Source: Bacteroidota bacterium
Lineage (GTDB): Bacteria > Bacteroidota > Bacteroidia > Flavobacteriales > Flavobacteriaceae
NCBI GenBank assembly: GCA_024279425.1
Contig: JAJRRO010000063.1
Location: forward strand, 1 to 47,442
Length of the DNA: 47,442 nt
Direction of reading: 5' to 3'
In this document: positions 1,478-21,200 of the stretch, one piece after another
How positions within the stretch are numbered: the stretch's first letter is position 1
Layout: every line of letters begins with the position of its first letter
Notes under the pieces: model-generated
Told to the model about the DNA's origin: nothing
Seen by the model: only the letters and a program-made list of their open reading frames with translations
The model's database searches: none
Position numbers and translations under genes: made by a program

Positions 1478-2603
1478 CTAATCTAGTGGATTTTTAATGG
1501 ATTTAAGAGTATTTGTGGCTACATGGGTATAAATTTCCGTGGTCTTACTGGAACCATGTCCTAGAAGTACTTGAATTTTTCTTAGATCGACCCCAGATTC
1601 CAATAGGTGGGTAGCAAAGCTATGGCGCAGGACATGCGGGGTGATGGATTTTCTAATCCCTGATTTGATGGCGGCTCTTTTTACAATTTTCAACACTTTC
1701 ACCGCTGTATTTCCCTCCGTTTTGACCTTCAAATAGAAATATTTTAGGCCTCCATTCCTTATAGTAAAGGCGTAGATCTTTCAATGCCGTTTGAGATAAA
1801 AGCGTATGTCTGTCCTTATTGCCTTTAGCTCCTTCTACCCTTATGAGCATTCTCTTACTATCTACATCCTCCAATTTTAAGTTTAACAATTCGCTTCGTC
1901 TTAAACCTGCGCTATATAATAATTGTATTATGCACCTATGTTTAATGTTATTGGCATTTTCAATAATGGAAAGTACTTCCTCCTTTGAAATAACGGTGGG
2001 AAGTTTGGATTCTTTTCTTGGTCGCTCTATTTCATAAAATCTATTTGGCATACCCAAGACCACCTCATAATAGAACTTTATGGCATTGATAACTTGATTC
2101 AAGTAAGAATTGGACACGTTTCTTTGAATCAGTTTCTGAAGAAATTCCCTAATATCACTTTCGTTAATAGCATTCAGTTCTTTGTCCTTATAATGGTTGA
2201 TGAACATTTCAAAGAAGGAAACATAGGTCCGTACCGTACTATTGGCGTATCTTTTTAATTCAAGCTTTAAAAGATATTCTTCGGGACAGGGCCTGTACTC
2301 GGGGATGGGTTTTCTTTTCCTGAACCATGTTACATCTACTATTTCATTTTTGGTATTTACTGGTTTGTTGATCAAAAACCTATTATAATTGATCGAGACC
2401 ATACCCTTGAAGGTATTAAAAATGATTCCAAGGTTACCCTTGGTATTAAGGATATAGGCCATATTATATTGTTGGCTCCATTTAGGGTCTGGAAGGCCTT
2501 TGATCAACCCCTGTACAAGCTTGTCTGGATAAAATTTAATGCCTATCATCTTTTCATTATTGATCATAAGATGATAAAGTGTAATTGATTTTATAGTATT
2601 CAT
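1478..2603 (-). pseudogene. Xer-like tyrosine recombinase/integrase, interrupted by a frameshift
   Basis: The first frame (2603 down to about 1695) holds an N-terminal domain of about 100 residues (KGLPDPKWSQQYNMAYILNT...), a SAM-like core-binding domain (about 105-190) and the first half of the catalytic domain, with Arg in YSAGLRRSELL (about 235) and Lys in GAKGNKDR (about 260). The second half lies in another frame (from about 1732 to 1478): [28 protein letters not shown] with the catalytic Tyr. The match resumes at [10 protein letters not shown], so one extra base (or two missing) near 1692-1698 separates RK from HRHY. As written the enzyme should be dead unless a +1 frameshift or sequencing error restores it. 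It lacks the extra helix insert of true IntI and is Xer-like. Confidence 0.8.
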
Positions 2604-4379: not shown

Positions 4380-5009
4380 CTATTGAGTAGCTAGTGCCAA
4401 TCCTTCTTTAGCAGAAGTATCATTTGGTTTATTAAGTAGTACTTTTTGAAATAATAACTTGGCATCTTTTTTCTTCCCAAGTTTTAGGTTGCACCAAGCA
4501 TACATCAATAATCCATCATAATCAAATGGATATAGATCTACAACCTGTTCAAAAAGTTTGATTGACTTGTCAATTTGTCCACGATTATAATAAATGGTAC
4601 CTAAATAATATAAAGCCTTGGTATTATGGGGTGAGCTTTTTAAAATTGCATCATAAACAGTTATCACTTCATCCCAACGACCTAGTGCAGATATTGGAAA
4701 AATATATCCGAATTTTGCTTCATTGGCATAGGGCATCAAATCCATTGATTTTTGATAAAAAGCGATAGATTCCTTAAAGTTCCCACCCATATAATTCAAC
4801 CAACCCAACCGTAAATTAGATTCATATGAGTTATCTTGATATACTGATTTAATTTGATCAGCAGCTGATTTATAATTGCCTTGCGATTCCAATGCATAAC
4901 TTTTGGTAAATGCTTCATGTACTTGTGCAAAATTAACTTGTGCAAAAAGAGCCGGTCTAAATAAAAAAAATAATAAACCTAAAATGAAAATTTTTCTTAG
5001 AGTTTCCAT
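4380..5009 (-). CDS. TPR-repeat periplasmic protein, last gene of the PqqD/ATP-grasp operon
   Basis: 209 residues: a signal peptide (basic start, FILGLLFFLFRPALFAQ) and then four to five tetratricopeptide repeats from about residue 30 on, recognisable by Y-x(3)-G-x-(Y/W/F) spacings and closing P residues (YYLGTIYYNRGQIDKSIKLFEQVVDLYP). TPR solenoids bind partner proteins, and in the periplasm they usually scaffold an envelope complex. Its start overlaps the end of the barrel gene by 13 bases, which implies co-translation and a shared function with that protein, whose own N-terminus also carries TPR-like helices. Nothing in the sequence identifies a ligand. This closes the six-gene operon that starts at 11179. 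Confidence 0.8.
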   Translation of the reverse strand: METLRKIFILGLLFFLFRPALFAQVNFAQVHEAFTKSYALESQGNYKSAADQIKSVYQDNSYESNLRLGWLNYMGGNFKESIAFYQKSMDLMPYANEAKFGYIFPISALGRWDEVITVYDAILKSSPHNTKALYYLGTIYYNRGQIDKSIKLFEQVVDLYPFDYDGLLMYAWCNLKLGKKKDAKLLFQKVLLNKPNDTSAKEGLALATQ

Positions 5010-6304
5010 ATTATTCCTCCTATTATATTTTGTTGATTAAAACTAAATGTTGTTGGTAATATACTATTATCCTCAGCGACGAAATTATCTTCCATTTTCA
5101 TAAAAGAATATCCAATTTTAATATCAATTTTTTCAGTGATAAACTTCATTGTCGATCCAAATTCACTTAAAGCAGCAGCTGATTGATTATATATTAAAGA
5201 TGCATTATTAGCAACAAAATTGTTCAATTCACCTGTATTACCATATCCGGTAATTGAAAAATTAGTTGTATTAATCGATATACCCCCTGTATATACCACA
5301 TTAGACTTTTTATTTTCATTTTGAAACTGAACAGAGCCAAAAGGCACCAATAAAATATTTTCTAATGGATAAAGTGAAACTGTATATCCTCCTTGAAATT
5401 GATTAAATCCATTTAAATTTGATATGGATACATTAACTGTATTTCGTATAAAATAAGATGCTTTTGTAAGAGAGCCACCGAATACATAATCTGTATACTT
5501 GATAGATGAAGATAAAGATGAAGAATTTCTTCCTGGTGGATTAAGATCAGTTTGTGAATCTGAATTTACATCATCATACTTTCCAAAAATCAAATTCAAA
5601 TAGGTGTCAAAATACCAACGATTTCCTAATGCAAAAGTCACATCTGCATAATAACGAGTTTCATTTCCATTAAAAAAAACATTATTAATTTCTCCTGATA
5701 AAATTTTTTGTTGAACCGATGAAATCGGCATTACAGAAAGACGATGATAGAAATTTACCCTTTTGGAAAAAGGATGGTTTAAACCCAAAGAGTACAATTG
5801 ATAATTTTCTGGAAAATAACGGACATCATTATCATTTGACACAAGCATTTTATCGTAATCTGAATTACTAGTCGCTAATACTCCAAAATCTATAACAGAA
5901 ATAGCAGGTAAATCTAATTGAATCTTATCCTTGACTTCTTTTGATATCTTAGTGTAAAATAAATGAGACTCTAATATTAATCCACTATAACGATACGCCC
6001 AATATAGATATTCCTGCACTACAATATCATAGGTGTTCACGACATAAGCTTCTTCTAATATTTTAATGGCACTTAACATTTTACCTTCTTTAAAATAAGC
6101 AATTCCCATTCGTACTTTAAGGTAATAAAAATCTATTCCTTCCTTTTGAGATTTTTTTCCCATTTCTAACACTAATTTCCAATCTTGTTTTAGATATAAA
6201 GCATATGTTGTACTATCTACATGTTTATATGACAAGGGAATTTTCTGAGCACTAGCTGTAGCTACAAACCACAATACTAATATTGATATAATTTGTTTTC
6301 CCAT
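4997..6304 (-). CDS. Outer-membrane beta-barrel protein with TPR-like N-terminus
   Basis: 435 residues with a cleavable signal (to about residue 19, ATASAQ). Residues about 30-120 form helical pairs resembling TPRs (AYFKEGKMLSAIKILEEAYVVN). The remainder is alternating amphipathic strands with aromatic girdles (RYYADVTFALGNRWYFDTYL, YTDYVFGGSLTKASYFI) and finishes with a terminal strand, QQNIIGGIIWKL, as in outer-membrane barrels. The layout resembles YaiO-type TPR-plus-barrel proteins, though no signature confirms that. It overlaps the upstream transporter/peptidase gene by 28 bases and the downstream TPR gene by 13. In context it could be the exit or entry pore for whatever the operon makes or handles. 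Confidence 0.75.
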   Translation of the reverse strand: MGKQIISILVLWFVATASAQKIPLSYKHVDSTTYALYLKQDWKLVLEMGKKSQKEGIDFYYLKVRMGIAYFKEGKMLSAIKILEEAYVVNTYDIVVQEYLYWAYRYSGLILESHLFYTKISKEVKDKIQLDLPAISVIDFGVLATSNSDYDKMLVSNDNDVRYFPENYQLYSLGLNHPFSKRVNFYHRLSVMPISSVQQKILSGEINNVFFNGNETRYYADVTFALGNRWYFDTYLNLIFGKYDDVNSDSQTDLNPPGRNSSSLSSSIKYTDYVFGGSLTKASYFIRNTVNVSISNLNGFNQFQGGYTVSLYPLENILLVPFGSVQFQNENKKSNVVYTGGISINTTNFSITGYGNTGELNNFVANNASLIYNQSAAALSEFGSTMKFITEKIDIKIGYSFMKMEDNFVAEDNSILPTTFSFNQQNIIGGIIWKL

Positions 6305-8490
6305 TTTAAATTAATTTTTGAGGTTTTAGACGATTCACATCTAATATTTATTTCTCTATTCTTATGTACTGCTATTTGAGCTAAAAAAAAAGCATGATTA
6401 GCACGACCGGTAATCTGAGATTCCATTTCCAATTGTTGTGGATTGAACATTTGATCGGTTTCTTTATAAGATAGCTTGTAATTTCCTTTGAGGAACATAC
6501 CAAAAGGCACTAAAAAATCTTGAATTGTTAGCAAAGGAAAACGATAAAGATGATGAACCGGAAAAGGTGTTTCTACTGAAAGGGCACTATGTTCACTTAG
6601 GATTATTTTATAAAAAGAGCGATAAAAATAAAATAATGCACTCTTTTTAGAACCAATATAATTTAGAGCAGAAAATGTTTTACCATTATTTTCATAATAT
6701 AATTTCGCTCCTGTTTTTGAGCAAATAAGAAATGACTGGTTATAAATATCAATTTCATTTCTAATAGAAAAAATGATTTCCTTTTCATCTTCTGTGGTCA
6801 TACTCAACACAAATTCATCACCAGGATTCCATTTAAAAGCAGCTTGAAGTATAGGTGAAGTTGAAATATTTGATATTGTATCTTGTTCTTCAGGAATTCC
6901 TTTTTGTACGAATCTTAATTTCATTTTATCGCCAACGATATATTCTGAGAGTGGCCAAAAAATAGTTGGATCACCAATTTTTGAAGAAGATTGTAATTGA
7001 AAATGTAAATGTGGATATGGTGAACGCCCTGAATTACCACATTTCCCAATGCCCTGCCCTTCTACTACAACATCACCGACTTCAACTTCAACCGACCCCT
7101 TTTTTAAATGGCTTAGTTTTGAATATAAATAATCATCATGTTTTATTACGACTGTATTTCCCCAGTTTTGAAGTACATTGGTAATTCCTATTTCATTATC
7201 ATCAACTGTATTTACAGCAGCAACAATGGTTCCGGCTGCTGGTGCAATCACGGGTTTATCAAAACAAAAATAATCGCTTGGTAAAAGTCCTTCTCCCGAA
7301 AATTCTTTTTCTGAAAATGTATCTATGATTATAAAATCCCAGGCAAAACGAAAAAATTCTTTATGTGTGTATGTTCCGTCATGCCCCTGATTTACAGTCC
7401 ACTGACCCATAAATGGTAATCGAATAGGAGAAACAAAGGCAGCATATTTTTTTGCAGGTTGACTATCAAATAAGTATGCATTTGTTTCAGGATTTTTTTG
7501 TTGAACCAATGTTAGAATTGGTGAACGAGTTTGGTCATATCTAATTTTAAATGCATACAAAACTCCAATAATTACCATATTGAACGGCAAAGAAAAAACT
7601 GACAATTCAAACATTCCGAAAAGGCGATCAGAACCTATTGTGGTAATAACCAATACAGGAATTAATAACAAACTCCATAAAAAAGATTGACGCGAAGGAA
7701 TTAAAAAATATCCTCCAATTGCGATTGCTGACAATATAAAATTGAAGCCGTAGTAGGTATAATTCAATGAGCCGGTATACATGCCCAGAAATGAATAAAC
7801 TCCAAAGGCTACAAAAAAACCTACTAAGGAAAATAAGAAGTTTATACGTGAATGAATTAGCAAACCAATTGCAATAAGTACACCTGCCAAGATGTTAAAC
7901 TGAAAAAAAATAGCTCCCAACGACAAAAAATAAGTGTCGAATCCTGTATCTTGAAAAAGGTTGGCCAAACCATCAACAAATACAACAAGTGCATTGCCTC
8001 CTAACTTAAAAAACATATTTGATGGGTAAAGCGCCTCTGTATTTAAAGTAATCCCTGTAAATGATGGAAACGCTAATAATAGTAGCCACATAGCAAGTAA
8101 AAATGGTATACTTAAAAATGGTAAACCGCATTTTGTCAATAATCCCATTAAGAAAACGGTACTAAAAAACGCTATAGCACCACCCATAATAATCAATAAC
8201 AGAACATCAAAACCAGGTGAAAAATAAGTGCCAACTCCCAGCCCTACCAATAAAGCATTAAAACTGAATAATCCTTTTCGAATTATTACAGAAGAATATC
8301 CTAAAATCTCAGATAATGCTACTGCTGTAATTACCGCAATTAAACCACTTAAACCTGTCCACCAATCAATAAAACTAACGATAACCATTACTACTGCTAA
8401 TATCTTATTATCAGTAAAAAAAATCTGAGAGTAGCTTGTTAAGATAGCTTCTCCTATAAAAAGGCATTTTTCTATTAACTTATTTTTCAT
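6277..8490 (-). CDS. Urea-transporter-like membrane domain fused to M23 peptidase domain
   Basis: 737 residues. Residues about 20-310 form about ten membrane helices in two homologous halves, marked by FNALLVGLGVGTYF (about 77-90) and FNFILSAIAIGG (about 249-260), the repeated signature of urea transporters. A periplasmic M23 (LytM/lysostaphin-type) zinc-peptidase domain follows at about 365-510: His376 and Asp385 in THKEFFRFAWDF, His461 in LSHL, and the HLH motif at 494-496. M23 enzymes cut peptidoglycan cross-bridges or stem peptides. About 220 residues of uncharacterised sequence follow. The fusion places a channel for small uncharged amides and a cell-wall peptidase in one protein. Urea itself may not be the substrate. 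The gene starts 40 bases after the decarboxylase and overlaps the barrel gene. Confidence 0.85.
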   Translation of the reverse strand: MKNKLIEKCLFIGEAILTSYSQIFFTDNKILAVVMVIVSFIDWWTGLSGLIAVITAVALSEILGYSSVIIRKGLFSFNALLVGLGVGTYFSPGFDVLLLIIMGGAIAFFSTVFLMGLLTKCGLPFLSIPFLLAMWLLLLAFPSFTGITLNTEALYPSNMFFKLGGNALVVFVDGLANLFQDTGFDTYFLSLGAIFFQFNILAGVLIAIGLLIHSRINFLFSLVGFFVAFGVYSFLGMYTGSLNYTYYGFNFILSAIAIGGYFLIPSRQSFLWSLLLIPVLVITTIGSDRLFGMFELSVFSLPFNMVIIGVLYAFKIRYDQTRSPILTLVQQKNPETNAYLFDSQPAKKYAAFVSPIRLPFMGQWTVNQGHDGTYTHKEFFRFAWDFIIIDTFSEKEFSGEGLLPSDYFCFDKPVIAPAAGTIVAAVNTVDDNEIGITNVLQNWGNTVVIKHDDYLYSKLSHLKKGSVEVEVGDVVVEGQGIGKCGNSGRSPYPHLHFQLQSSSKIGDPTIFWPLSEYIVGDKMKLRFVQKGIPEEQDTISNISTSPILQAAFKWNPGDEFVLSMTTEDEKEIIFSIRNEIDIYNQSFLICSKTGAKLYYENNGKTFSALNYIGSKKSALFYFYRSFYKIILSEHSALSVETPFPVHHLYRFPLLTIQDFLVPFGMFLKGNYKLSYKETDQMFNPQQLEMESQITGRANHAFFLAQIAVHKNREINIRCESSKTSKINLKWENKLYQY

Positions 8491-8530
8491 TTATTAGACA
8501 ACTCACATAATGGTAGTCACCCTACTTTAC

Positions 8531-9883
8531 TTAATTAACCTTAAGGTGTTCAGGTATCATTTCTTGTCTTCTGAACACTTCTTTATCCTCTTGTTTTCTT
8601 ATAACATGTGTTTTACCTTTTTCGTCAATTAAAACAATATTAGGACGGTAGGTAATAAACTGCATCCATTGAGTCATTGTATATGCTCCTACACGTTTAA
8701 TTACAAAGCGATCTCCTTTATTGAGTAATGGAAAATCAATATTTTTTCTAATAATATCAATATTCATACATAAAGGCCCGTAAATGGTTGTAGGCTCTGA
8801 TTGGAAACTTGTTTCATGTACAGGATAAATTTCATGATCGTACCAAAATGCTGTAAATAGTATATTCACACCGGTATCTATAACCATAGCTCTATGTCCA
8901 TCAGCCAAACGCTTATTTGCTAATACAGTACCTGCAAGCCAGCCTGCATCATCAATTAAGGCTCTTCCCGTTTCTAAAATAAGTGTTGGCGTTTCATTAT
9001 TAGGGAAACTAGCAGATGTCATTGCAGTTGTAATTGTATGTGCATAATCATCAAAACTAGGCGTCGTATCAGTTGCCGGTAAATAAGCACCCTGTAATGT
9101 GTTTTGAGAAGCAAAACCACCTCCAACATCAATATAACCAATGCTGATTTGGAAACGTTCAAATATTCTAGTTGCTAATACTGCTAATTTCTGAATAGCA
9201 GTTGCATATGCTTTAGACAATGTGATATATGTGCCGACATGTATATGCAATCCTATTAAATCAATGTTGCCATTGGTCAAAATACGATTAATAGCATTCC
9301 AAGCTTCACCACTTTCATAGTTAAAACCAAAACGATCCCATTGTGGTACAATACCGGTATCCATGTTCACACGAATAGCAACTTGTGGGCGCTCTTTTAA
9401 TTCATCTAACATTTCAATAATAGCATACAATTCATCAAAATGATCAATATGAATCAATGATTTGTTATTAATTGCTCTAGCTAAATCTTCTTCGCTTTTA
9501 TCAGGGCCATTAAAAATAATTTTGTTTCCTGGTATATTATTATCAAGTGCTTTTTCATATTCAAAACCAGAAACTACTTCTGCCCAAGCTCCTTCTTGAT
9601 GAAATACCCTACAAACGGCATCTATATAATTAGTTTTATAAGACCAGGCAAATTGCACTTTTGGATATCGCGTTGAAAAAGCACGATAAGCTGTACGATA
9701 GGTCTCTCGAATTGTTTTCTCAGACAGCACAAAAACAGGTGAGCCATATTGATCTATGAGATTATCAATTAGCACATTATCTATTGATTCTATTGGGCGC
9801 AACCTTTTTAAACTTCCAAATTTATTTGGAATACCTTCAACTACTTTGCGCAATATCGGACGTTCATATATTTTTTTATCCAT
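8531..9883 (-). CDS. PLP-dependent amino-acid decarboxylase (DapDC/LysA fold)
   Basis: 450 residues of the fold-III Orn/Lys/DAP decarboxylase family. The PLP lysine is Lys83 in FAWSYKTNY. Further family marks are HIHVGT (about 213), the glycine loop DVGGGFAS (about 250), ETGRAL (about 304, in place of EPGR) and GPLC (about 372), which carries the cysteine contributed across the dimer. Members decarboxylate meso-DAP, lysine, ornithine, arginine or carboxynorspermidine. The altered substrate motifs (ETGR, and GPLCMNID instead of GPxCESxD) argue against a housekeeping LysA. It lies 9 bases after the ATP-grasp gene, so the pair probably acts in sequence on one amino-acid-like substrate. The extra N-terminal 40 residues are unusual. 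Exact substrate is undetermined. Confidence 0.85.
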   Translation of the reverse strand: MDKKIYERPILRKVVEGIPNKFGSLKRLRPIESIDNVLIDNLIDQYGSPVFVLSEKTIRETYRTAYRAFSTRYPKVQFAWSYKTNYIDAVCRVFHQEGAWAEVVSGFEYEKALDNNIPGNKIIFNGPDKSEEDLARAINNKSLIHIDHFDELYAIIEMLDELKERPQVAIRVNMDTGIVPQWDRFGFNYESGEAWNAINRILTNGNIDLIGLHIHVGTYITLSKAYATAIQKLAVLATRIFERFQISIGYIDVGGGFASQNTLQGAYLPATDTTPSFDDYAHTITTAMTSASFPNNETPTLILETGRALIDDAGWLAGTVLANKRLADGHRAMVIDTGVNILFTAFWYDHEIYPVHETSFQSEPTTIYGPLCMNIDIIRKNIDFPLLNKGDRFVIKRVGAYTMTQWMQFITYRPNIVLIDEKGKTHVIRKQEDKEVFRRQEMIPEHLKVN

Positions 9884-9892
9884 TTTTATTTT

Positions 9893-10936
9893 TTATAGTT
9901 CCCCAAAAATTATAATTTTCTCGAAATCTGATATATCACCTATTAAATCCCAAGAGTAGCGAATAAACATTTTTCCGAATTCATATTCTGTAACAGATTC
10001 AACTTTTTCACCTAATGCCAAACGGCATAACATTTCAGGAATATTTTGCCCTGCTCCTACTGCCAAATAAACCCAGGCTGGTATTCTTGGATTAATCTCA
10101 ATAAGATGATATTCACCATCATCGGTTTTTATCATTTCAAGTTCCATTCCGCCACGCCATTTAGTTTCTCTAATGATATGATGTGTGATTTCGAGTAGAC
10201 GTTCATCATTTAAGGTAATGCCACCCCAGGCTTTCCCTTTATCTGTAATATATTGTTTACGCATTGGTACGGCGGCAACGGTATTCCCTTTTCCATCACC
10301 CAAAGCAACTACATTTACTTCTGTCCCTTGAATAGATTGTTGAACCACGACCGGAAGTCCCCATTTTGCTGATAATTTATTAAAATAGAAAACGGCCTGA
10401 TTATTATTAATAACTTTAAAAGCCTCGTAAAACTTACCTTTAATCCAATAAGGATAAGATAAAGGTTTCGGTAAGTTTGCTAATTCTTTACTGTTTACAA
10501 TGGCTTTACTTTCGGGTACTGTTATATTATACTTTTTAGAAAATTCCGGTAAATTATCTTTATGTCGTTCTTCAAATTGCTCCATAGTAGGTAAGAAAGT
10601 ATGGATACCCATTTCTAATAGTTTGTCACTGAACTTAATGAACAAGTACAATTCAGAATCAAAATTAGGGATAACAATATCTATTTGTTCTTTTTCATGA
10701 ACATATGCTAAACGTTTTAGAAAAGCTTCACTTCCTGTTGAAGGGAATGGCATTAAATAGGTTTTATCCACCAATCTCGGCATATAAATCCCTGGTTCTA
10801 AGTTTTCGTAGGCCAATCCTATTATACGAGCATCTAAATTAGAGTCTTTTATACCTCGGATTACGGGCACTCCAGGTCCCGGACTATCAATATTATTTAA
10901 TCCGGTAACCGCTATGGTTAGTTTTTCATTTCCCAT
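9893..10936 (-). CDS. ATP-grasp carboxylate-amine ligase
   Basis: 347 residues, carbamoyl-phosphate-synthase-like ATP-grasp. It opens with a Rossmann-like strand (LTIAVTGLNN) and a pre-grasp domain. It then has the ATP-grasp subdomains, with a nucleotide-binding strand near VVVQQSIQGTEVNVVAL and the metal-binding signature ELEMIKTDDGEYHLIEINPR, whose E and N-P-R coordinate Mg-ATP. Such enzymes activate a carboxylate as acyl phosphate and join it to an amine. It starts 3 bases after the PqqD-like gene and ends 9 bases before the decarboxylase, so translation is probably coupled. With a PqqD partner a peptide-modifying role is possible, but no precursor peptide is visible. A free amino-acid ligase role is equally consistent. 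Confidence 0.8.
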   Translation of the reverse strand: MGNEKLTIAVTGLNNIDSPGPGVPVIRGIKDSNLDARIIGLAYENLEPGIYMPRLVDKTYLMPFPSTGSEAFLKRLAYVHEKEQIDIVIPNFDSELYLFIKFSDKLLEMGIHTFLPTMEQFEERHKDNLPEFSKKYNITVPESKAIVNSKELANLPKPLSYPYWIKGKFYEAFKVINNNQAVFYFNKLSAKWGLPVVVQQSIQGTEVNVVALGDGKGNTVAAVPMRKQYITDKGKAWGGITLNDERLLEITHHIIRETKWRGGMELEMIKTDDGEYHLIEINPRIPAWVYLAVGAGQNIPEMLCRLALGEKVESVTEYEFGKMFIRYSWDLIGDISDFEKIIIFGEL

Positions 10937-10939
10937 AGC

Positions 10940-11179
10940 TTAATCTGTCATATTTTCACGTTTCAAGAAATCTAGGAACTCGTATAGATCACGTCCTGCA
11001 GTTACATTATCTATTTCAAAATCTTCGGTAATTGCATTGATGATTTCATCGCCAGATTTACCTTCTTTAAGAAGGTTTATAATAAATAAGCCCATTTCAT
11101 TTGTTGTGAAAGATTCACCCGTAGCCGGCTTGAAAATGAATCCGTTATCGCTTATTGCAAGTGAGTTTAATTTACTCAT
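10940..11179 (-). CDS. PqqD-like small protein (RiPP recognition element fold)
   Basis: 79 residues. It has strand pairs at the start (LAISDNGFIFKPATGESFTTNE), then helix GLFIINLLKEGKSGDEIINAITEDFEID and a C-terminal helix with D-L-Y-E-F-L-D-F-L. The order of a short beta part, then a winged helix with (D/E)-x-D-x(5)-D-(L/V)-x-x-F-(L/I), fits PqqD, the peptide-binding chaperone fold (RRE) that presents precursor peptides or carrier substrates to modifying enzymes. It is the first gene of the six-gene operon. No second domain is present. No plausible precursor peptide occurs immediately upstream on either strand, so this copy may act on a protein or be a carrier-like partner for the ATP-grasp enzyme. 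Confidence 0.7.
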   Translation of the reverse strand: MSKLNSLAISDNGFIFKPATGESFTTNEMGLFIINLLKEGKSGDEIINAITEDFEIDNVTAGRDLYEFLDFLKRENMTD

Positions 11180-11941: not shown

Positions 11942-12344
11942 GTGATGGAAAAGCAACGAAGAAAATTCGCATCGAAGTTCACGACCAAGGTGGTATTAGA
12001 GGCTCTTAAGGAGCGTGAAACGGCTCAAGACCTTGCCCAAAGGCGAGATATCACCGCAACAGGTCAACCTCTGGAAACGGGAATTTCTGGCACAGGCGGA
12101 ATCCGTATTTACCAAAGGCCAAAAATCTGCCAAGAGTGAGTCGGAAGATATTAAACTAAGTATGGACGGTAAAGGAAGGGCAATCGACAATGTTTTCATA
12201 GAACGTCTCTGGAGAAGTGTTAAATACGAAAGTATCTATCTCAATCCCCCAGACTCTGGGATCGATCTATACGAACAACTCAATAAATATTTGACTATTA
12301 GAATAACAGAAGAAGACATCAAGGAATCGAACAACGAAAAGTAG
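11942..12344 (+). pseudogene. IS3-family transposase remnant (orfA start fused to orfB end)
   Basis: The first frame starts MMEKQRRKFASKFTTKVVLEALKER, the usual opening of an IS3-family OrfA with its helix-turn-helix. A frameshift near 12040-12060 moves to a second frame with ISPQQVNLWKREFLAQAESVF, the OrfA leucine-zipper region. From about 12150 the sequence jumps to the end of the DDE domain of OrfB (SMDGKGRAIDNVFIERLWRS, then KYESIYLNPP). Most of OrfB, including the two Asp residues, is missing by an internal deletion. The tail after about residue 90 is unlike the family. It is non-functional, with plus-strand orientation. Confidence 0.75.
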
Positions 12345-14258: not shown

Positions 14259-15260
14259 TCAATAAAATTTACTGTAATTTTTTCTTCTTCGCTCTTTAAA
14301 GCGAGAGATATCAAAAACCAAAAACAGTTCCAGTGAATTAGGTATAAATTGTTTGGCTTGGGCTCCAAAGGGCATTCTATAGTTTAACCCAAATTCAAAG
14401 GTCTCCAAGGTAATACTCGTAGCAAGTCCTATTTCGGAGAAAGAAGCGGATTCCAAAAAATTAAAATGCTCATTAATTCCCAAGCTTACATTTCCCAAGA
14501 TCATTTCTTGGTAAAAATCCAATCTCGTATTGGGTCCTTGTAAGGAAACTGCATTGAAAAAATATAAATAAGAATATTCTGGTAATTTAGATTGGCCGAA
14601 TTCATTAAGGTCCATTTCATACCCAAATTGCCCAGAAACGAGCATGCTTAAATTTATATTATTCTCACTTTCCCTAGATGATATTTCTGGCTGATTTAAA
14701 TGTTTTACCGAAAGTCCAAAAAGCATGTTCATATCGTTATGCACTAAAAAGGAGGCGCCCATATCCAAGTATCCAATATTTTCTGAAGCCGTTATGGGAT
14801 CAATCGTATTTGCGCTAATCTGTCCTGTGAATATGTTAATTTGATCTTGAAAAGTAAGGTTGTTAAAATCAAACCTATAATTGCTGTAAGCTGCTGTTAT
14901 TCCTGGATACAATACCCATTCGTTCGGCAAAATTAATTTATACATATAACTTATGGCAGCTGAGGTATAATTAAAGCCAGAGTTATTTAAAGTGTTATTA
15001 AATAAATCAATTCCCAATTGAAAATTGTATTCCTCAAAAGAAGTAGAACCAAATGCATATTTATGCTGGGAATGTGATCCTTGGTTTTGGCTTGCAAATT
15101 CAGTTAACACCCCAATTCTAGTTTTGTCTTTAAAAGCATGAAAACTTGGATTTAAAGATGCAGGGGCCTTACTAAGATTATGCACGATTTTTTCTTGGGT
15201 ATAGACCCCAAACGAAATACAAATAAAGAGTAGGGTCAGTATACTTTGTTCTTTTATCAT
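14259..15260 (-). CDS. PorP/SprF-family type IX secretion membrane protein
   Basis: 333 residues with a signal peptide (to about residue 21, ISFGVYTQ). It then has the PorP/SprF pattern: an N-terminal HNLSKAPASLNPSFHAF segment (the family usually has N-P-A-x-x-G), repeated amphipathic strands, ENIGYLDMGASFLVHNDMNM, the FGLSVKHLNQPE motif in which family members read GxSxxHLxxP, and a C-terminal barrel end. Family proteins sit in the outer membrane and are needed for secretion or attachment of a cognate type B T9SS adhesin (SprF for SprB in gliding). Its ATG overlaps the adhesin stop codon by one base (TAATG), so the two form a translationally coupled pair. The C-terminal KERRRKNYSKFY tail is basic and unusual. 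Confidence 0.85.
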   Translation of the reverse strand: MIKEQSILTLLFICISFGVYTQEKIVHNLSKAPASLNPSFHAFKDKTRIGVLTEFASQNQGSHSQHKYAFGSTSFEEYNFQLGIDLFNNTLNNSGFNYTSAAISYMYKLILPNEWVLYPGITAAYSNYRFDFNNLTFQDQINIFTGQISANTIDPITASENIGYLDMGASFLVHNDMNMLFGLSVKHLNQPEISSRESENNINLSMLVSGQFGYEMDLNEFGQSKLPEYSYLYFFNAVSLQGPNTRLDFYQEMILGNVSLGINEHFNFLESASFSEIGLATSITLETFEFGLNYRMPFGAQAKQFIPNSLELFLVFDISRFKERRRKNYSKFY

Positions 15261-18200
15261 TATCGTAATATTGAGGCTTCGCCAGTTTTGGTTATTTGGT
15301 TATTTCCGGTGGTCGTTCCTACAAATAAGTATCGAAAAGACGTATTACTATACGGTTTTCCCGTGCTTAAATTACCATCCCAACCCCAATTTATGGGCAT
15401 ATCGCCAAAATCATGTGCAACGCTATAAATTAGGGCTCCCCACATATCGTAAATTTGAAAAGTGAATGAGGCTATTCCAGTAAATTCTCCTTGGAAATAA
15501 TCATTTATGCCATCTGCATTAGCGGAAAAAACATTGGGAAACATCACATCATAACCCTTACCAATTTGTACGCTTTGTTGTACTTCCTTGCTACAACCTT
15601 GCTGGTTATACAGTGTTAGTGTTGTGGTAAATATGCCCGGGAAGTTATAGCTGTGTGTGCTAACGGAACCCTCAGCATTTGGATCTACACTAATGATGGG
15701 GCTTCCATCCCCAAAACCCCACGATGCATAATCATAGCCGATTTCACTGGTATTGTTAAATCTAATGTCTTCTTTGGCCAATAAAAGACCCGTAATTTCA
15801 AATTCCTCTGAGCTATAGGTAAATGTAGGCTGCATTACTCCAGCGCTTAACGGCATTGTAAACCCACATCCTTGATTATTTACCACATTTAATGTGGCAT
15901 TTTCCAATGGATTTGCAATTTGTACGGCATATGTATCTATACCTGTTTTTACGGAAGGCATAAGAACATTTTCATAGTAAAAACTTAAATCACCACCTTG
16001 GTTATTAAAAATGGATACAGAAATACTGCCTGGATTTCCCAAACATAAGGACTGGTCAAAATAGGGCCCGTCCAATAGTTGTAAGGATTCTGTTTTGTTA
16101 AGGGTGATTATTTCTTTATAAAAATAAGATGGATCAATCTGTGTACAACCGTTTATAGTACTTGTAACCGTAAGTCTATATCTTCCCACTTCCAATCCAT
16201 TTAGTAAGGTAATATTTTGTCCTAAGGGTGTAAATACGGGTGCTGGATTATTTGTTGTGCCTGCTTCTTCTTTTTCCCATAAAATATCGTAAGGTCTATT
16301 GCCTCCGTTTAGGGCAATGGAAATAGCACCATCTGAGGTTGAACCACAGCTTACGAGGGTTATCGCCTTATCCACTGTAATAGGATCATATGCCGCGTTA
16401 AAAGTAAATTCAATTACCTCGGATGAACAATTTCTACTGTCAGTTATTGTTAACCCATACGTACCGGGCAAAGCATTAAAACTTGTAATGTCCTGTGCCA
16501 TAAAATTGTTTGGGCCAGTCCAGTCGTATAAGTAATTTGAAATGTTATTGGCATCAATAAAAGGACTTCCACCAGCAACTAAATTGTTATCTAGCGTAAA
16601 TGGGAAGGTTGCTTCACAGATTTCTAAAGTGTATAATTGAGTGCCCGCATAAGAAATAGCATCATAACGGTCCATAGTAAAAGATTGTACTACACATTGG
16701 TTGGTATCCGTTACGTAAATACTATGATTATCATTTGTAAGTGATGTAATGGTAGTTTCCAAAGTATTGAAGAAAACTGGAGTGCCATTATCTACAACAT
16801 ATTGATAAGGTGCCGTACCACCCTGAACAGCAACAGTAAAAGTTCTATTGGCATTTGTATCAAAACAATTTGGGTTTGTAGTCGTAACTTTTGTTGCGCT
16901 AAATAGTTGGGGAGCAACTATTTCAAAAGATTTAGTGCTGGTGCAAGGAGCGTTAGGGTCACTATTGGTATCGGTAACAATTACTTCATAGGTTCCTTCC
17001 CCTAAATTAGTAAGATTGGTACTATTGGTGGTGTAGCTTGTTCCGTTTTTATACCAGTTTATTTGCAGTTGGCTACTTGGATCTGCATTCACTTGAATAC
17101 TTATTTCAGCATTGGTATCACCAGCACATTGCAGTTGCTCGTTGGTAAGCTGCACATTGTTGATCGCAAGTTCTAGTTTGGAGGCCACGTTTGTCGTAAA
17201 TGCCGCTGTACATCCAATTTGGTCCGTTACAGATAGTACATAAACCCCAGGCACCAGATTCGTAATGTTTTCGGAAGAATACCCTACGTTATTTGGCCCT
17301 GTCCAACTAAAATCATAAGGAGGAAAACCACCGGTTACCGTTGTAGCTCCAATATTTAAGCTAATAGTGCCATCATTTTGTCCAAAACATGTCGCATTTT
17401 CCACAACAACGGAAGCTTCATCAAATTGTAAGCCCAAAGGCAGGGTAATTGTTTGTAATTCTTCCTGGCCACAGGAGGCATCTTTTACTTTTATAGTATA
17501 GGTAGCTCCTCCAGTTAAATTGGTATAGGTAATATTTGGATTGTTCGATGTTTGTACCAAGGTAGTGCCGTTGGGCCTAGTAAGCGTAAAGGTAAACGGG
17601 GCCATCCCTCCAGTACTGTAAGCTGTAATTGCTGTGTTGCAAGTATCTCCTATGTTTAGTGTTAAAAGCTCTGGTTCTGCAACCAAAAATGGAGAAGATG
17701 TTGTCCCACAGAATTCATTATAGACCGTTAATTGGTACACTCCCGCTGTTAGATCAGTAATGCTTAGTGTAGACGCTGTAAAGTTGGTATCCCCAATTTT
17801 AGTCCATTCATAGGTATTGGCAAGGGCGTTTGCTTGGGTAATTACATTGGAAGCACTTGCATTTGTTGAACTACCGGTACTGGCAAATGCTGTAAATGCT
17901 ATTCCGGCAATTTTTGCGGTCAATATAATTTCATTTGCATTGGTTGAGGCAATTACCTCGCTAAGGTTTGCTCCCGTAGCAGCATTTATATTTTGGGCAA
18001 GGGCTGCGGCCACTTCATCACTATTTTGGATCTGATTTAGGCCATTCAAGGTTACTTGATGCTCATAGACAATACCATTGATAATTAGACTGTAGGTATT
18101 ATTTAGCTCTGTAGTTCCCCAAAGGGAAATCGTATTGATTTGTTTTTGGGCAGTATTGCCTCCGGTAATTCTTCCATTTGGTATTACGATGCTTCCGTCA

Positions 18201-21200
18201 TTTCCTCCAAAGCAACTCACATTGCCAATGTCATTTGCATTAACAGCGTCATTATCTATAATTGGATAAGGGATGACTGTTACTAATTTGGGCGATGTTT
18301 CATCCGTACAAGAAACTCCATTTATACTACTGGTAACCACTCTTTTAAAATAGGTAGACGTATTGAGTGTACTTGGGGGGGTATAATTAGCCTGTGTTGC
18401 ATTGGTAACCATAGTGTATGATTGGTTGTCCGGAGAAGACCACCATTGATAGGTTATGGCTCCGATCCCTGTAGCTGACTCTTCTTCCACAATAGCATCG
18501 GGTTGATCACCTTCGCAAACACTTTGATTATCCCTTATTTTTCCAGCATATACGGCGTTGCCCGTTATGGTTATGGTATTTGTTTCTACCACGCAAGTAA
18601 GGTTGTTTAAAGAAGTTCTCGTGGTAGTTCTCTTGAAAAGTATCGTTCCTGTTGGAATTGGTGGAGCATATGAAGCAGTACTAACACCAGTATCCAACCA
18701 AATAACACCGTCGGTAGAAGTATACCAATTATAACTTTGGTCGTTAAAAGTACTACCCCCCGAAACCGCTAATGCCGCGGGCACATCGCCTTCACATATG
18801 GTTTGATTGTTGGTTAAGGTTCCCGGTACAATTTCGTCTGTGACCGCTACAACGATGATGTTGCTGTCTTCGGAACATACTACACCGTTTAAGGTCGAAA
18901 AAGCTGTTCTTTTAAAATAGGTGGTTGGAAAACTGCCGGCCATTGGATCGTAGGCATTATTTACCGCTCCATCTATTAAACTCCAGTTGGTATTATCTTC
19001 AGAAGAATACCATTGATAAGCCAGAGCGCCAGATGCTGTTCCATTAGTTGTATTATCCAATAAACCCGGGTCTTCTCCAAAGCATATTTGTTGATCACCC
19101 AGAACACTGCCCCCACTAACCACATTGATGATAACTTCAATCGTATTACTAAGTTCTTCGGGGCCGCATACATTTCCGTCAACAGTGGTCACATATCCTC
19201 TACGATAAAATTTATTGGATGTGAAGGCTATATTTGGGCTGTATGTAGCCCCTGTTGCACCAACTATTGCAGAAAAAGTAATAGCATCATCGGAATCATA
19301 CCATTGAAAACCCAAATAAGGTAAACCCTCTATGGTACTTACATTGCCAATTGTTGGTGGGACGGTATTATTACATATGGTACTATCGGAACCAATATCG
19401 TTTGCATTAGGCACTAAAACCACTACGGAATTACTATTTACAACACAGGTTACACCAGATATATCTGTACTATAAGTGGTTCTATAATAGGTCGTTGTTT
19501 GCGTCAGACCAGTTGGTGGATCATAACTTAAGCTTGTTGCTCCAGGTACTAGGGCGTTGTTTGCAAACCATTGAAAAGCAAGCGTTTGACCACTTGCGGG
19601 CGTTAGTTCTTCTATTACACTTGGATTACCGCCTTCACATATTACTTCTTCATTGGTGCCATTTGTACCATTGGCATTGGTGGTACCAACGGTTCCGGCG
19701 GTAGCATTTCCTCCATTTATTATCTCTAAAATATTACTGCCAACACTACACGAAACTCCGTTTAGAGTGGAAGTGGTCATTCTTTGATAGTAACTGTCTG
19801 CGTTGACAGCGGGGGGGTCGTAAGTAATGAAAGTAGCTCCTGGAATATCCGTAAATGTAATATTGTCATTGGAAATCTGCCATTGGTAACTTAAAGTTCC
19901 AGAGGCAAGTAGGGTAAAATTGGTGTCGAAGGCCAGCGGGTCTCCTTGGTTACATACCACAGTGCTTCCTGTTGCCCCCGAGGTGAATGTTATGTTATGA
20001 TTCGATGCATTATTGAACCTATTTACATAAATTATTATGGATTGTGTTATTGCTTCGCATGACGTAGTTGCCAGAGTTGCAGTTGCTTTTCTTCTATAAT
20101 TGGCTTCTAAGGCGTTGGAGTTGTTAGGGGTATATGTAGCTTGATTTGTGTTTGCAATATCAGACCATGTACTTCCATCTGCTGAACTTTGCCAAGTATA
20201 GGTTATTGTTCCGTTGGAAGCCGCATCGGCTAAACTAGTAAGAGGAGCAATGTTTGCTGAACCACAAACGGTTTGAGTTTGCGAAATTGCTCCTTCGGAT
20301 AGGGTAAGTAAGGTCACTAATGTTGGAAGACTAGTAGCCTCACAGGTATTCCCATTGCCGGTAAGGGTAACATTTCTTTTAAAATAAGCAGATGCTGTCA
20401 ATCCTGAAGAAAAACTTAAGCTCTCTCCGGTTTCTCCTGCAATTGTATTGTAATTAACATTATCTGTTGAAGAAAACCATTGGAAATTAATGCCAATTCC
20501 AGAAGTAGTTCCATTGGTAATACTTATAGTGGAAGGGGCTTCATTTTCACATACGACCTGGTTCGCTGAACCTTCCCCACCCGAAATTATGCCCGCAACA
20601 GTTATGGTAATTTCATTGGTATACTCCGAACAAACTTTGGCATTTAGAATGCTTGTATCCATTCTTCTGTATTGGGTAGAAGTTCCAAGTATTCCAGGCG
20701 TAAATGTCGAGCCTATAGCAGCGGGTATAACGCTCCAAGTTACTCCATTATCGGTAGACTCTTCCCATGCATAGCTCAAGTTTCCGGCTGCAGTTGTATT
20801 GCTTAGATTAATTAAGGTACTTGGCAGTTCTCCAGCACAAATACTTTGATTGTTCCCAATTATTCCTAGGCTAAGGTTGTTTACAAAAACGGTACTTTCT
20901 GTAGAATGTTCGTAACAAACTTTTTCATTGTTCGCTACAAGTGTTTGCCTTCTGTACCTTGTAGTAACTAAAGGTGCATTGGCAAAATTGAATATAGTAT
21001 TGGTTTCTCCATTTATATTTGTAAAATTTCCAGTGGTTGCAGATTGCCATTGATAGGTAATGTTTACATTGGAAGTAGTTCCATTTGTAATAACTATTGA
21101 ATTGGGTATTTCACCTTCGCAAATCGTTTGGTCCGCACTTGCATTGCCCCCGTTAATTTCGTCAAGAACTGTGACGATAATTTCATTGGTATAATCGGAA

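Follow-up and report, generated by a model that had tools for sequence, protein, structure and literature searches.

Six genes on the minus strand of contig JAJRRO010000063.1, between nt 4380 and 11179, form a real, conserved system in which three cytoplasmic proteins are encoded together with three proteins of the cell envelope. The contig belongs to an assembly of a Bacteroidota bacterium of the family Flavobacteriaceae (GCA_024279425.1), and the window referred to here is the whole stretch analysed, 47,442 nt in length. The genes specify, in order of reading, a PqqD-like protein, an ATP-grasp ligase, a pyridoxal 5′-phosphate (PLP)-dependent decarboxylase, a fusion of a urea-transporter (UT) fold channel to an M23 zinc peptidase, an outer-membrane barrel and an exported tetratricopeptide repeat (TPR) protein. 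An earlier note on this DNA, made by inspection, had proposed that the operon may make and export, or recover, an amino acid or peptide that carries an amine modification and is linked to the cell wall, and that no characterised pathway carries this set. The open literature searched, mostly outside subscription journals, held no relevant description of the six-gene combination, and although one may exist elsewhere, the system is apparently undescribed.

The strand, the number of genes and the spacings given in that note were reproduced exactly: the first four genes stand 3, 9 and 40 bases apart, and the overlaps that follow are of 28 and 13. The PqqD-like gene (10940..11179; 79 amino acids (aa); PF05402, 45.4 bits against a cut-off of 23.4) is followed by those for a PRK12767/PylC-like ATP-grasp carboxylate-amine ligase (9893..10936; 347 aa; ATPgrasp_Ter, 43.0 bits against 29.1), a decarboxylase of the alanine-racemase fold (8531..9883; 450 aa; Orn_Arg_deC_N, 111.7 bits against 23.4) and the urea-channel/M23 fusion (6277..8490; 737 aa; UT, 190.2 bits against 25, and Peptidase_M23, 59.2 bits against 28.7). 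The last two genes encode a barrel with N-terminal TPR-like helices (4997..6304; 435 aa; labelled from its structure model and fold matches) and a TPR protein (4380..5009; 209 aa; TPR_2, 75.6 bits against 27), both with signal peptides recognised by eye. Five of the six gene labels therefore stand, as they pass the curated cut-offs of Pfam; the barrel has no match in Pfam or NCBIfam, but its model of helices followed by about 14 strands agrees with its label. None of the six proteins reaches the cut-off of any NCBIfam model listed. The view that the genes act as a single unit is supported by the tight spacing and gene order seen again in related loci, where the median gap between channel and barrel genes is −9.5 bases (52 of 52 pairs within 200) and that between barrel and TPR genes is −13 bases (49 of 50 within 200). 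Given this recurrence, the arrangement is more than chance.

Related loci were located by scanning a profile of the ATP-grasp enzyme over one genome per species (GTDB 220), which gave 326 confirmed candidates, and the best 80 loci were examined. Most are from metagenome-assembled genomes, and some of their taxon names are possibly misassigned; the records name Lutibacter, Polaribacter, Seonamhaeicola, many Bacteroidales, Labilibaculum, Kapaibacterium, Ignavibacteria/Chlorobiota and one member of Victivallaceae. The set is shared by many bacteria of the sea and of sediments. The order PqqD, ATP-grasp, decarboxylase, channel/M23, barrel, TPR is complete in 49 of the 80 loci. Many of the incomplete loci end at a contig edge, and 7.7 kb of downstream sequence was available in only 40. 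After correction for contig ends, the PqqD-like gene is present in 75 of 76 loci (73 by tblastn alone), the decarboxylase in 75/75, the UT domain in 55/58, the M23 domain in 53/56, the barrel in 39/41 and the TPR protein in 37/40. Detection of the PqqD-like gene varied with the method, a greedy longest-ORF (open reading frame) caller recovering it in 67 of the 80 loci, tblastn in 76 and the two combined in 78; the other two loci have less than 430 bases of upstream sequence.

Separately, 395 independently drawn genomes of the phylum were searched at thresholds of E 1e-40 for the ATP-grasp enzyme and E 1e-15 for the channel profile. The former was found in 34 genomes, representing 27 of 170 genera, and the latter in 37, these being the same 34 and three more with lone transporters of about 300 aa. 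The urea-channel/M23 gene is carried by the identical 34 genomes, and by no others at the threshold used, and lies 1.36–2.05 kb from the ATP-grasp gene in every one (Fisher p ~7e-50 by species and 6e-32 by genus, kinship ignored). Whether the six genes travel together, the question on which the earlier proposal turned, is answered by this strict co-occurrence and by the 49 complete loci. The UT and M23 domains share one reading frame in 33 of the 34 genomes; in the other (G153) they occupy neighbouring frames with an apparent frameshift between them. The separate frames of G153/L203 were considered as evidence on the topology of M23 and rejected, because the break, within a run of T, resembles a frameshift.

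No channel cluster gene was found in 13 of the 80 loci, many of them ended by a contig edge, and in locus L061 the channel gene lies upstream on the opposite strand. A search for an unlinked channel gene covered six of the 13 genomes (L103, L108, L110, L123, L089 and L106), leaving aside L060, L070, L096, L097, L105, L124 and L125. The channel-M23 gene was present elsewhere in five of the six, but was not found in the sixth (1.8 Mb), and in two of the five (L196, L198) it is adjoined by barrel and TPR genes. Since split genomes hold the channel-M23 gene elsewhere, in some cases with barrel and TPR genes beside it, the set can be divided into a cytoplasmic module (PqqD-like protein, ATP-grasp enzyme and decarboxylase) and an envelope module, the members of which are not always together. 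Near the channel-M23 genes of L195 and L197, inspection by eye suggests two recurring genes with outer-membrane-like products, which may stand in for the barrel and TPR relatives that these stretches lack. Distant operons (L204–L209) keep the ATP-grasp, decarboxylase and channel-M23 genes, while their barrel genes are shorter or unrecognised. In some loci other genes interrupt the operon; they were considered as a missing part of it and rejected, being mostly diverse. One such type (cluster c10), bearing a sorting tail of a secretion system, lies between the ATP-grasp and decarboxylase genes in 5 of the 80 loci.

Judged by its sequence, the decarboxylase is not LysA, because a separate LysA (376.8 bits) is encoded on another contig of the same genome and the residues that read diaminopimelate (DAP) are replaced in the operon enzyme. 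Its match to the lysA model TIGR01048 (207.9 bits) is under the cut-off of 297.9, and that to the FslC/FigC model NF041039 (223.7 bits) is under the cut-off of 500. The nearest solved relative is an N-citrylornithine decarboxylase (7kh2, E 1.2e-58), with DAP decarboxylases next. In an alignment of 75 rows (the window and 74 loci), Lys83, His215, Gly254-256, Arg307 and Cys372 are invariant. The same is true of the pocket residues W347, Y348, M373, N374, I375, Q405 and W406, with T344 retained in 74 rows; these eight line the places at which relatives read the substrate side chain, roles that are partly docking-based (PMC7857480). The specificity-helix Arg of LysA (R343 in PMC7857480) is replaced by Thr344 in 74 of the 75 rows, and the acidic residue beside the catalytic Cys by Met373 in all of them. 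The LysA of the window's own genome keeps the Arg and has Glu after the Cys (the Glu was read by eye beside an alignment gap). T344, Y348 and M373 correspond to T327, Y331 and M355 of FigC, and the pocket is of the FigC-like, conjugate-acting kind: neither Asp nor Arg is there to read the side chain, the specificity helix bears Thr and Tyr, and Met follows the Cys. The FigC residues H357 and R387, citrate contacts from docking in PMC7857480, are Ile375 and Gln405 in all 75 rows, which rules out a citryl-type siderophore enzyme in the strict sense.

PMC7857480 groups FigC with SbnH, AcsE, MccE and BtrK, the substrates of which are amino acids carried on something else (BtrK decarboxylates carrier-bound glutamate), but the grouping also takes in DAPDC and D-ODC, whose amino acids are not so carried. 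Because the side-chain-binding residues of relatives are replaced by neutral ones in the operon enzyme, its substrate would be an amino-acid conjugate that is neutral at the distal end. Activity on free DAP, lysine, ornithine or arginine, for which the earlier note had suggested assays, seems unlikely on the same grounds. Standard lysine biosynthesis, which that note had named as a finding that would undo its proposal, was ruled out by the separate LysA and the pocket residues.

The ATP-grasp enzyme carries the motifs KGxxYEAF, GKxW and NPRxPAW. Among 72,556 plasmid records, two distant relatives of the ATP-grasp enzyme and three of the decarboxylase were detected. The better of the two ATP-grasp relatives is encoded by Streptomyces zaomyceticus (NZ_CP108525.1; WP_327166871.1, L213:8998-11274, annotated as hypothetical), and is a 758-aa protein whose C-terminal half matches decarboxylase domains. 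In BLASTP it matched the window's ATP-grasp enzyme at 27 percent (E 2e-33) and the decarboxylase at 21 percent (E 9e-10), and a profile comparison with the ATP-grasp family gave E 2.5e-29. The fusion retains all three ATP-grasp motifs, and its catalytic Cys is followed by Met, as in the operon decarboxylase. It supports, without proving, a ligase and decarboxylase that act in turn on one substrate; a second such fusion was not found on plasmids, and the evidence is one protein in one record. The gene that follows it overlaps by 4 bases and encodes a 195-aa product without a Pfam match. The other plasmid relative of the ATP-grasp enzyme is found in Haloarcula, among polysaccharide genes. Two tandem relatives of the decarboxylase, both annotated as hypothetical, are encoded by an Antarctobacter heliothermus plasmid (NZ_CP022543.1, L215:6917-9954). 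Genes for a 76-aa protein, a methyltransferase and a hydrolase come next, and the whole may be a related biosynthetic cluster. Carriage of the operon itself by plasmids was rejected, the relatives being distant ones of two of its enzymes, as was carriage by phages, where no match was found.

The fusion protein comprises a UT-fold channel (residues 1 to ~315), an M23 zinc peptidase (~354-510) and a beta-rich C-terminal domain (~520-737). Its AlphaFold model (22-sequence alignment, pLDDT 86.8) was matched by Foldseek to chains of dvUT (TMt 0.79–0.87) and then to M23 domains, and shows no extra membrane helix between the UT and M23 parts. Both the fold and the Pfam match (PF03253) place the channel in the UT family, while its score against TIGR03441 (115 bits) is under the cut-off of 274.6. 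The middle filter site of dvUT consists of L84, T130, L247 and T294, the same as in mammalian UT-A2 and UT-B, and E187 lies in the outer site (variable; Gln in UT-A2), according to PMC4357013. In an alignment of 59 channel-M23 rows (the window and 58 loci) both filter Leu are retained throughout, but the position of Thr130 holds Ser in 58 rows and Thr in one, that of Thr294 Ser in 52 rows or Ala in seven, and that of Glu187 Ala in 56 rows or Ser in three. The lone urea transporters of the phylum retain Thr, Thr and Glu (3/3). Because the filter residues are changed here and retained in the lone transporters, the channel is probably not tuned to urea. In the M23 domain, H376, D385, H494 and H496, which we take by their motif to be the zinc ligands, are present in all 59 rows.

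The model of the barrel (pLDDT 88.8) begins with TPR-like helices, a TPR segment being also identified, and its fold matches are general ones, including FadL, OmpG, BcsC and the polysaccharide secretin 4y25. The PqqD-like protein belongs by its Pfam match to the PqqD fold family; its best NCBIfam matches are lasso-peptide chaperones, all under their cut-offs, and it is a possible peptide- or carrier-binding partner. The N-terminal core is conserved and the C-terminus variable, which rules out carrier attachment via the C-terminus. Frames of 18-110 aa lying up to 3 kb to either side were compared at one BLASTP threshold in the 80 loci and the window, and none was conserved; nor was a precursor peptide found in the 400 bases upstream of the operon or in the gaps between its genes. 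The earlier remark that no precursor peptide is visible thus holds for these regions, and one may be encoded elsewhere in the genome. A GTAAC element, possibly a promoter or regulator site, lies upstream of the PqqD-like gene in 9 of 12 aligned relatives (L047–L058) and is absent from the window.

Genes neighbouring the loci were grouped in clusters, of which one representative each (two for AraC) was scanned by Pfam. An AraC-type regulator is found within 3.5 kb upstream in 26 of the 80 loci (27 cluster members, one elsewhere); its N-terminal part has no Pfam match, and metal sensing by it is presumptive. In four loci (L089, L092, L120 and L125) a DUF2202 cluster is found no more than 2 kb upstream; among the 61 loci with that much upstream sequence, the figure is three. 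DUF2202 occurs in 13 of 198 phylum genomes, giving a rough chance expectation of 0.002 for 61 loci with kinship and lineage ignored, and a literature search on this family returned no relevant description. ECF (extracytoplasmic function) sigma factors are present in 6 of the 80 loci and Metal_resist/LTXXQ-type clusters in five; of two representatives of the latter, one scored above and one below the Pfam cut-off. ECF sigma and anti-sigma cluster genes lie upstream of the ATP-grasp gene in L108, L119, L078, L085 and L070, with Metal_resist/LTXXQ-like genes in all but L070. Together, the upstream neighbours hint at metal or envelope stress. No AraC, DUF2202, ECF sigma or Metal_resist neighbour is found at the locus of the window itself.

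The operon was likely acquired recently. The ATP-grasp gene is found in one of 12 genomes of the genus, the window's own, and at full strength in four of 149 genomes of the family, with weak matches (E 1e-14 to 6e-11) in eight more. The operon is flanked on one side by the remnant of a transposase and on the other by a tyrosine recombinase that is interrupted. The former, likely left by an insertion sequence, is an integrase-core (rve_3) fragment at 12015-12344 on the plus strand, some 0.8 kb upstream, and scores under the Pfam cut-off; the latter (1478-2603, minus strand) appears to be split over two reading frames and is probably inactive. Further upstream on the minus strand (14259-23344), a sequence scan showed a PorP/SprF-like gene beside one for a repeat-rich protein of 2694 aa, a usual pairing in type IX secretion and gliding.

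The reading favoured here, tentatively and at somewhat less than an even chance, is that of a two-module system which conjugates and decarboxylates a small molecule and moves the product across the envelope. In the order that we infer, the ATP-grasp enzyme would join an amino acid to a partner, which could be a small acid, a small amine or a group bound to the PqqD-like protein; the PLP enzyme would then strip the alpha-carboxylate from the conjugated amino acid to give an amine-bearing product. This product, exported rather than imported, would cross the inner membrane via the UT-fold channel with its non-standard filter, the fused M23 peptidase would trim or release it, and the TPR protein and TPR-barrel would carry it over the outer membrane. 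A more specific version, in which a peptide or carrier presented by the PqqD-like protein acquires an amine through the ATP-grasp enzyme and decarboxylase, and the peptidase on the re-tuned urea channel frees the product and lets it pass, is doubtful, but if true would describe a peptidase-coupled small-molecule channel, a transporter type for which no description was found.

Several observations weigh against the make-and-move reading. Both ends of urea transporters are cytoplasmic, and by homology the M23 domain may face the cytoplasm; a positive-inside count of the channel's charges gave averages that favour neither membrane side for it, and nine M23 relatives in Flavobacteriaceae carry, as judged by eye, a signal or lipoprotein sequence. 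Passive conduction, as in UT proteins, does not obviously account for the export of a charged amine. The PqqD-like protein has no visible peptide in the flanks searched, and no channel-M23, PqqD, barrel or TPR gene is annotated beside the Streptomyces fusion. The other three of the five unlinked channel-M23 stretches have no neighbouring relative of the barrel or TPR gene, and in several more distant loci the barrel gene is shorter and has no TPR part.

One rival explanation is a pathway of the carrier-peptide type, resembling those for ribosomally synthesised and post-translationally modified peptides, in which the PqqD-like protein recognises an unlinked precursor, the ATP-grasp enzyme attaches an amino acid to it, the decarboxylase acts on a peptide-bound residue and M23 matures the product. 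The Pfam and lasso-chaperone matches of the PqqD-like protein, the presence of a peptidase domain in the set and the precedents of MccE and BtrK for decarboxylation on a peptide or carrier (PMC7857480) speak for such a pathway, but with no conserved small frame within 3 kb and no radical-SAM gene among the six it is rather unlikely. The reverse direction of transport, with barrel and channel importing a small molecule freed by M23 and the cytoplasmic enzymes modifying it, would suit the secreted look of the M23 relatives, the general, porin-like fold matches of the barrel and the bidirectional nature of passive UT channels. An ATP-using ligase and a decarboxylase suggest biosynthesis, however, and no catabolic partner family recurs around the loci, leaving uptake or salvage an unlikely reading.

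A chelator like rhizoferrin or staphyloferrin B, assembled by an ATP-grasp ligase under metal stress, is suggested by the siderophore enzyme FslC/FigC as best NCBIfam and PDB relative of the decarboxylase, and by the AraC, DUF2202, ECF sigma and Metal_resist/LTXXQ neighbours in some loci. Yet the citrate-binding residues are absent, no uptake receptor is among the six genes, metal sensing by the AraC protein is presumed rather than indicated by a Pfam match, one Metal_resist representative is under its cut-off and the window's locus has none of these neighbours, so that a metallophore appears improbable. The cell-wall link of the earlier note, in which an amine-modified amino acid or peptide is joined to peptidoglycan and M23 acts on peptidoglycan, fares worse and is very doubtful. 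Many solved M23 relatives are peptidoglycan hydrolases and the zinc-ligand positions are invariant, yet nothing ties the product to the wall or points to a peptidoglycan substrate, the decarboxylase has no DAP-reading residues and M23 may be on the cytoplasmic side. An ordinary role in lysine or polyamine metabolism, the remaining genes being bystanders, can practically be dismissed: the decarboxylase does match the lysA model, but under its cut-off and in a genome with its own LysA, and strict co-occurrence with the channel-M23 gene already contradicts this explanation.

If the make-and-move reading is right, it would add to Bacteroidota and their relatives a widespread and apparently undescribed system of biosynthesis and transport, with a new decarboxylase specificity, a ligase-decarboxylase pair that is fused in Streptomyces, and a channel fold known from urea-like solutes that has been put, together with an attached peptidase, to another use. 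The two modules and near-invariant pockets make it testable with a handful of genes.

In its logic, the proposed chemistry resembles that of FigA/FigC and of BtrI/BtrJ/BtrK, while departing from the features that define LysA, FslC and the urea filter. In the rhizoferrin pathway (FslA/FslC, or FigA/FigC) and with SbnH of staphyloferrin B, an amino acid is likewise conjugated by a ligase and then decarboxylated, as the conjugate, by an enzyme of the alanine-racemase fold, and the operon decarboxylase shares three pocket residues with FigC. The operon ligase, however, is an ATP-grasp enzyme and not an NIS (nonribosomal peptide synthetase-independent siderophore) synthetase, no receptor is present, the export genes differ and the two citrate-binding residues of FigC are Ile and Gln. 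Butirosin biosynthesis also combines a small partner protein, a ligase (BtrJ, an ATP-grasp enzyme) and an alanine-racemase-fold decarboxylase, but the small protein of the operon is PqqD-like, with no acyl-carrier match in Pfam or NCBIfam. The Streptomyces zaomyceticus protein unites relatives of both operon enzymes, apart from any annotated envelope or PqqD-like partner. The channel shares its fold and family with dvUT and the SLC14 transporters, but carries the M23 and C-terminal domains and has Ser (in some cases Ala) for the middle-filter Thr and Ala for Glu187. The barrel recalls the polysaccharide exporters BcsC and PgaA, in which periplasmic TPR helices (also part of PgaA) precede a barrel of 16 strands; that of the operon has a short TPR part, about 14 strands and a weak fold match to BcsC (TMq 0.36), and is accompanied by no synthase.

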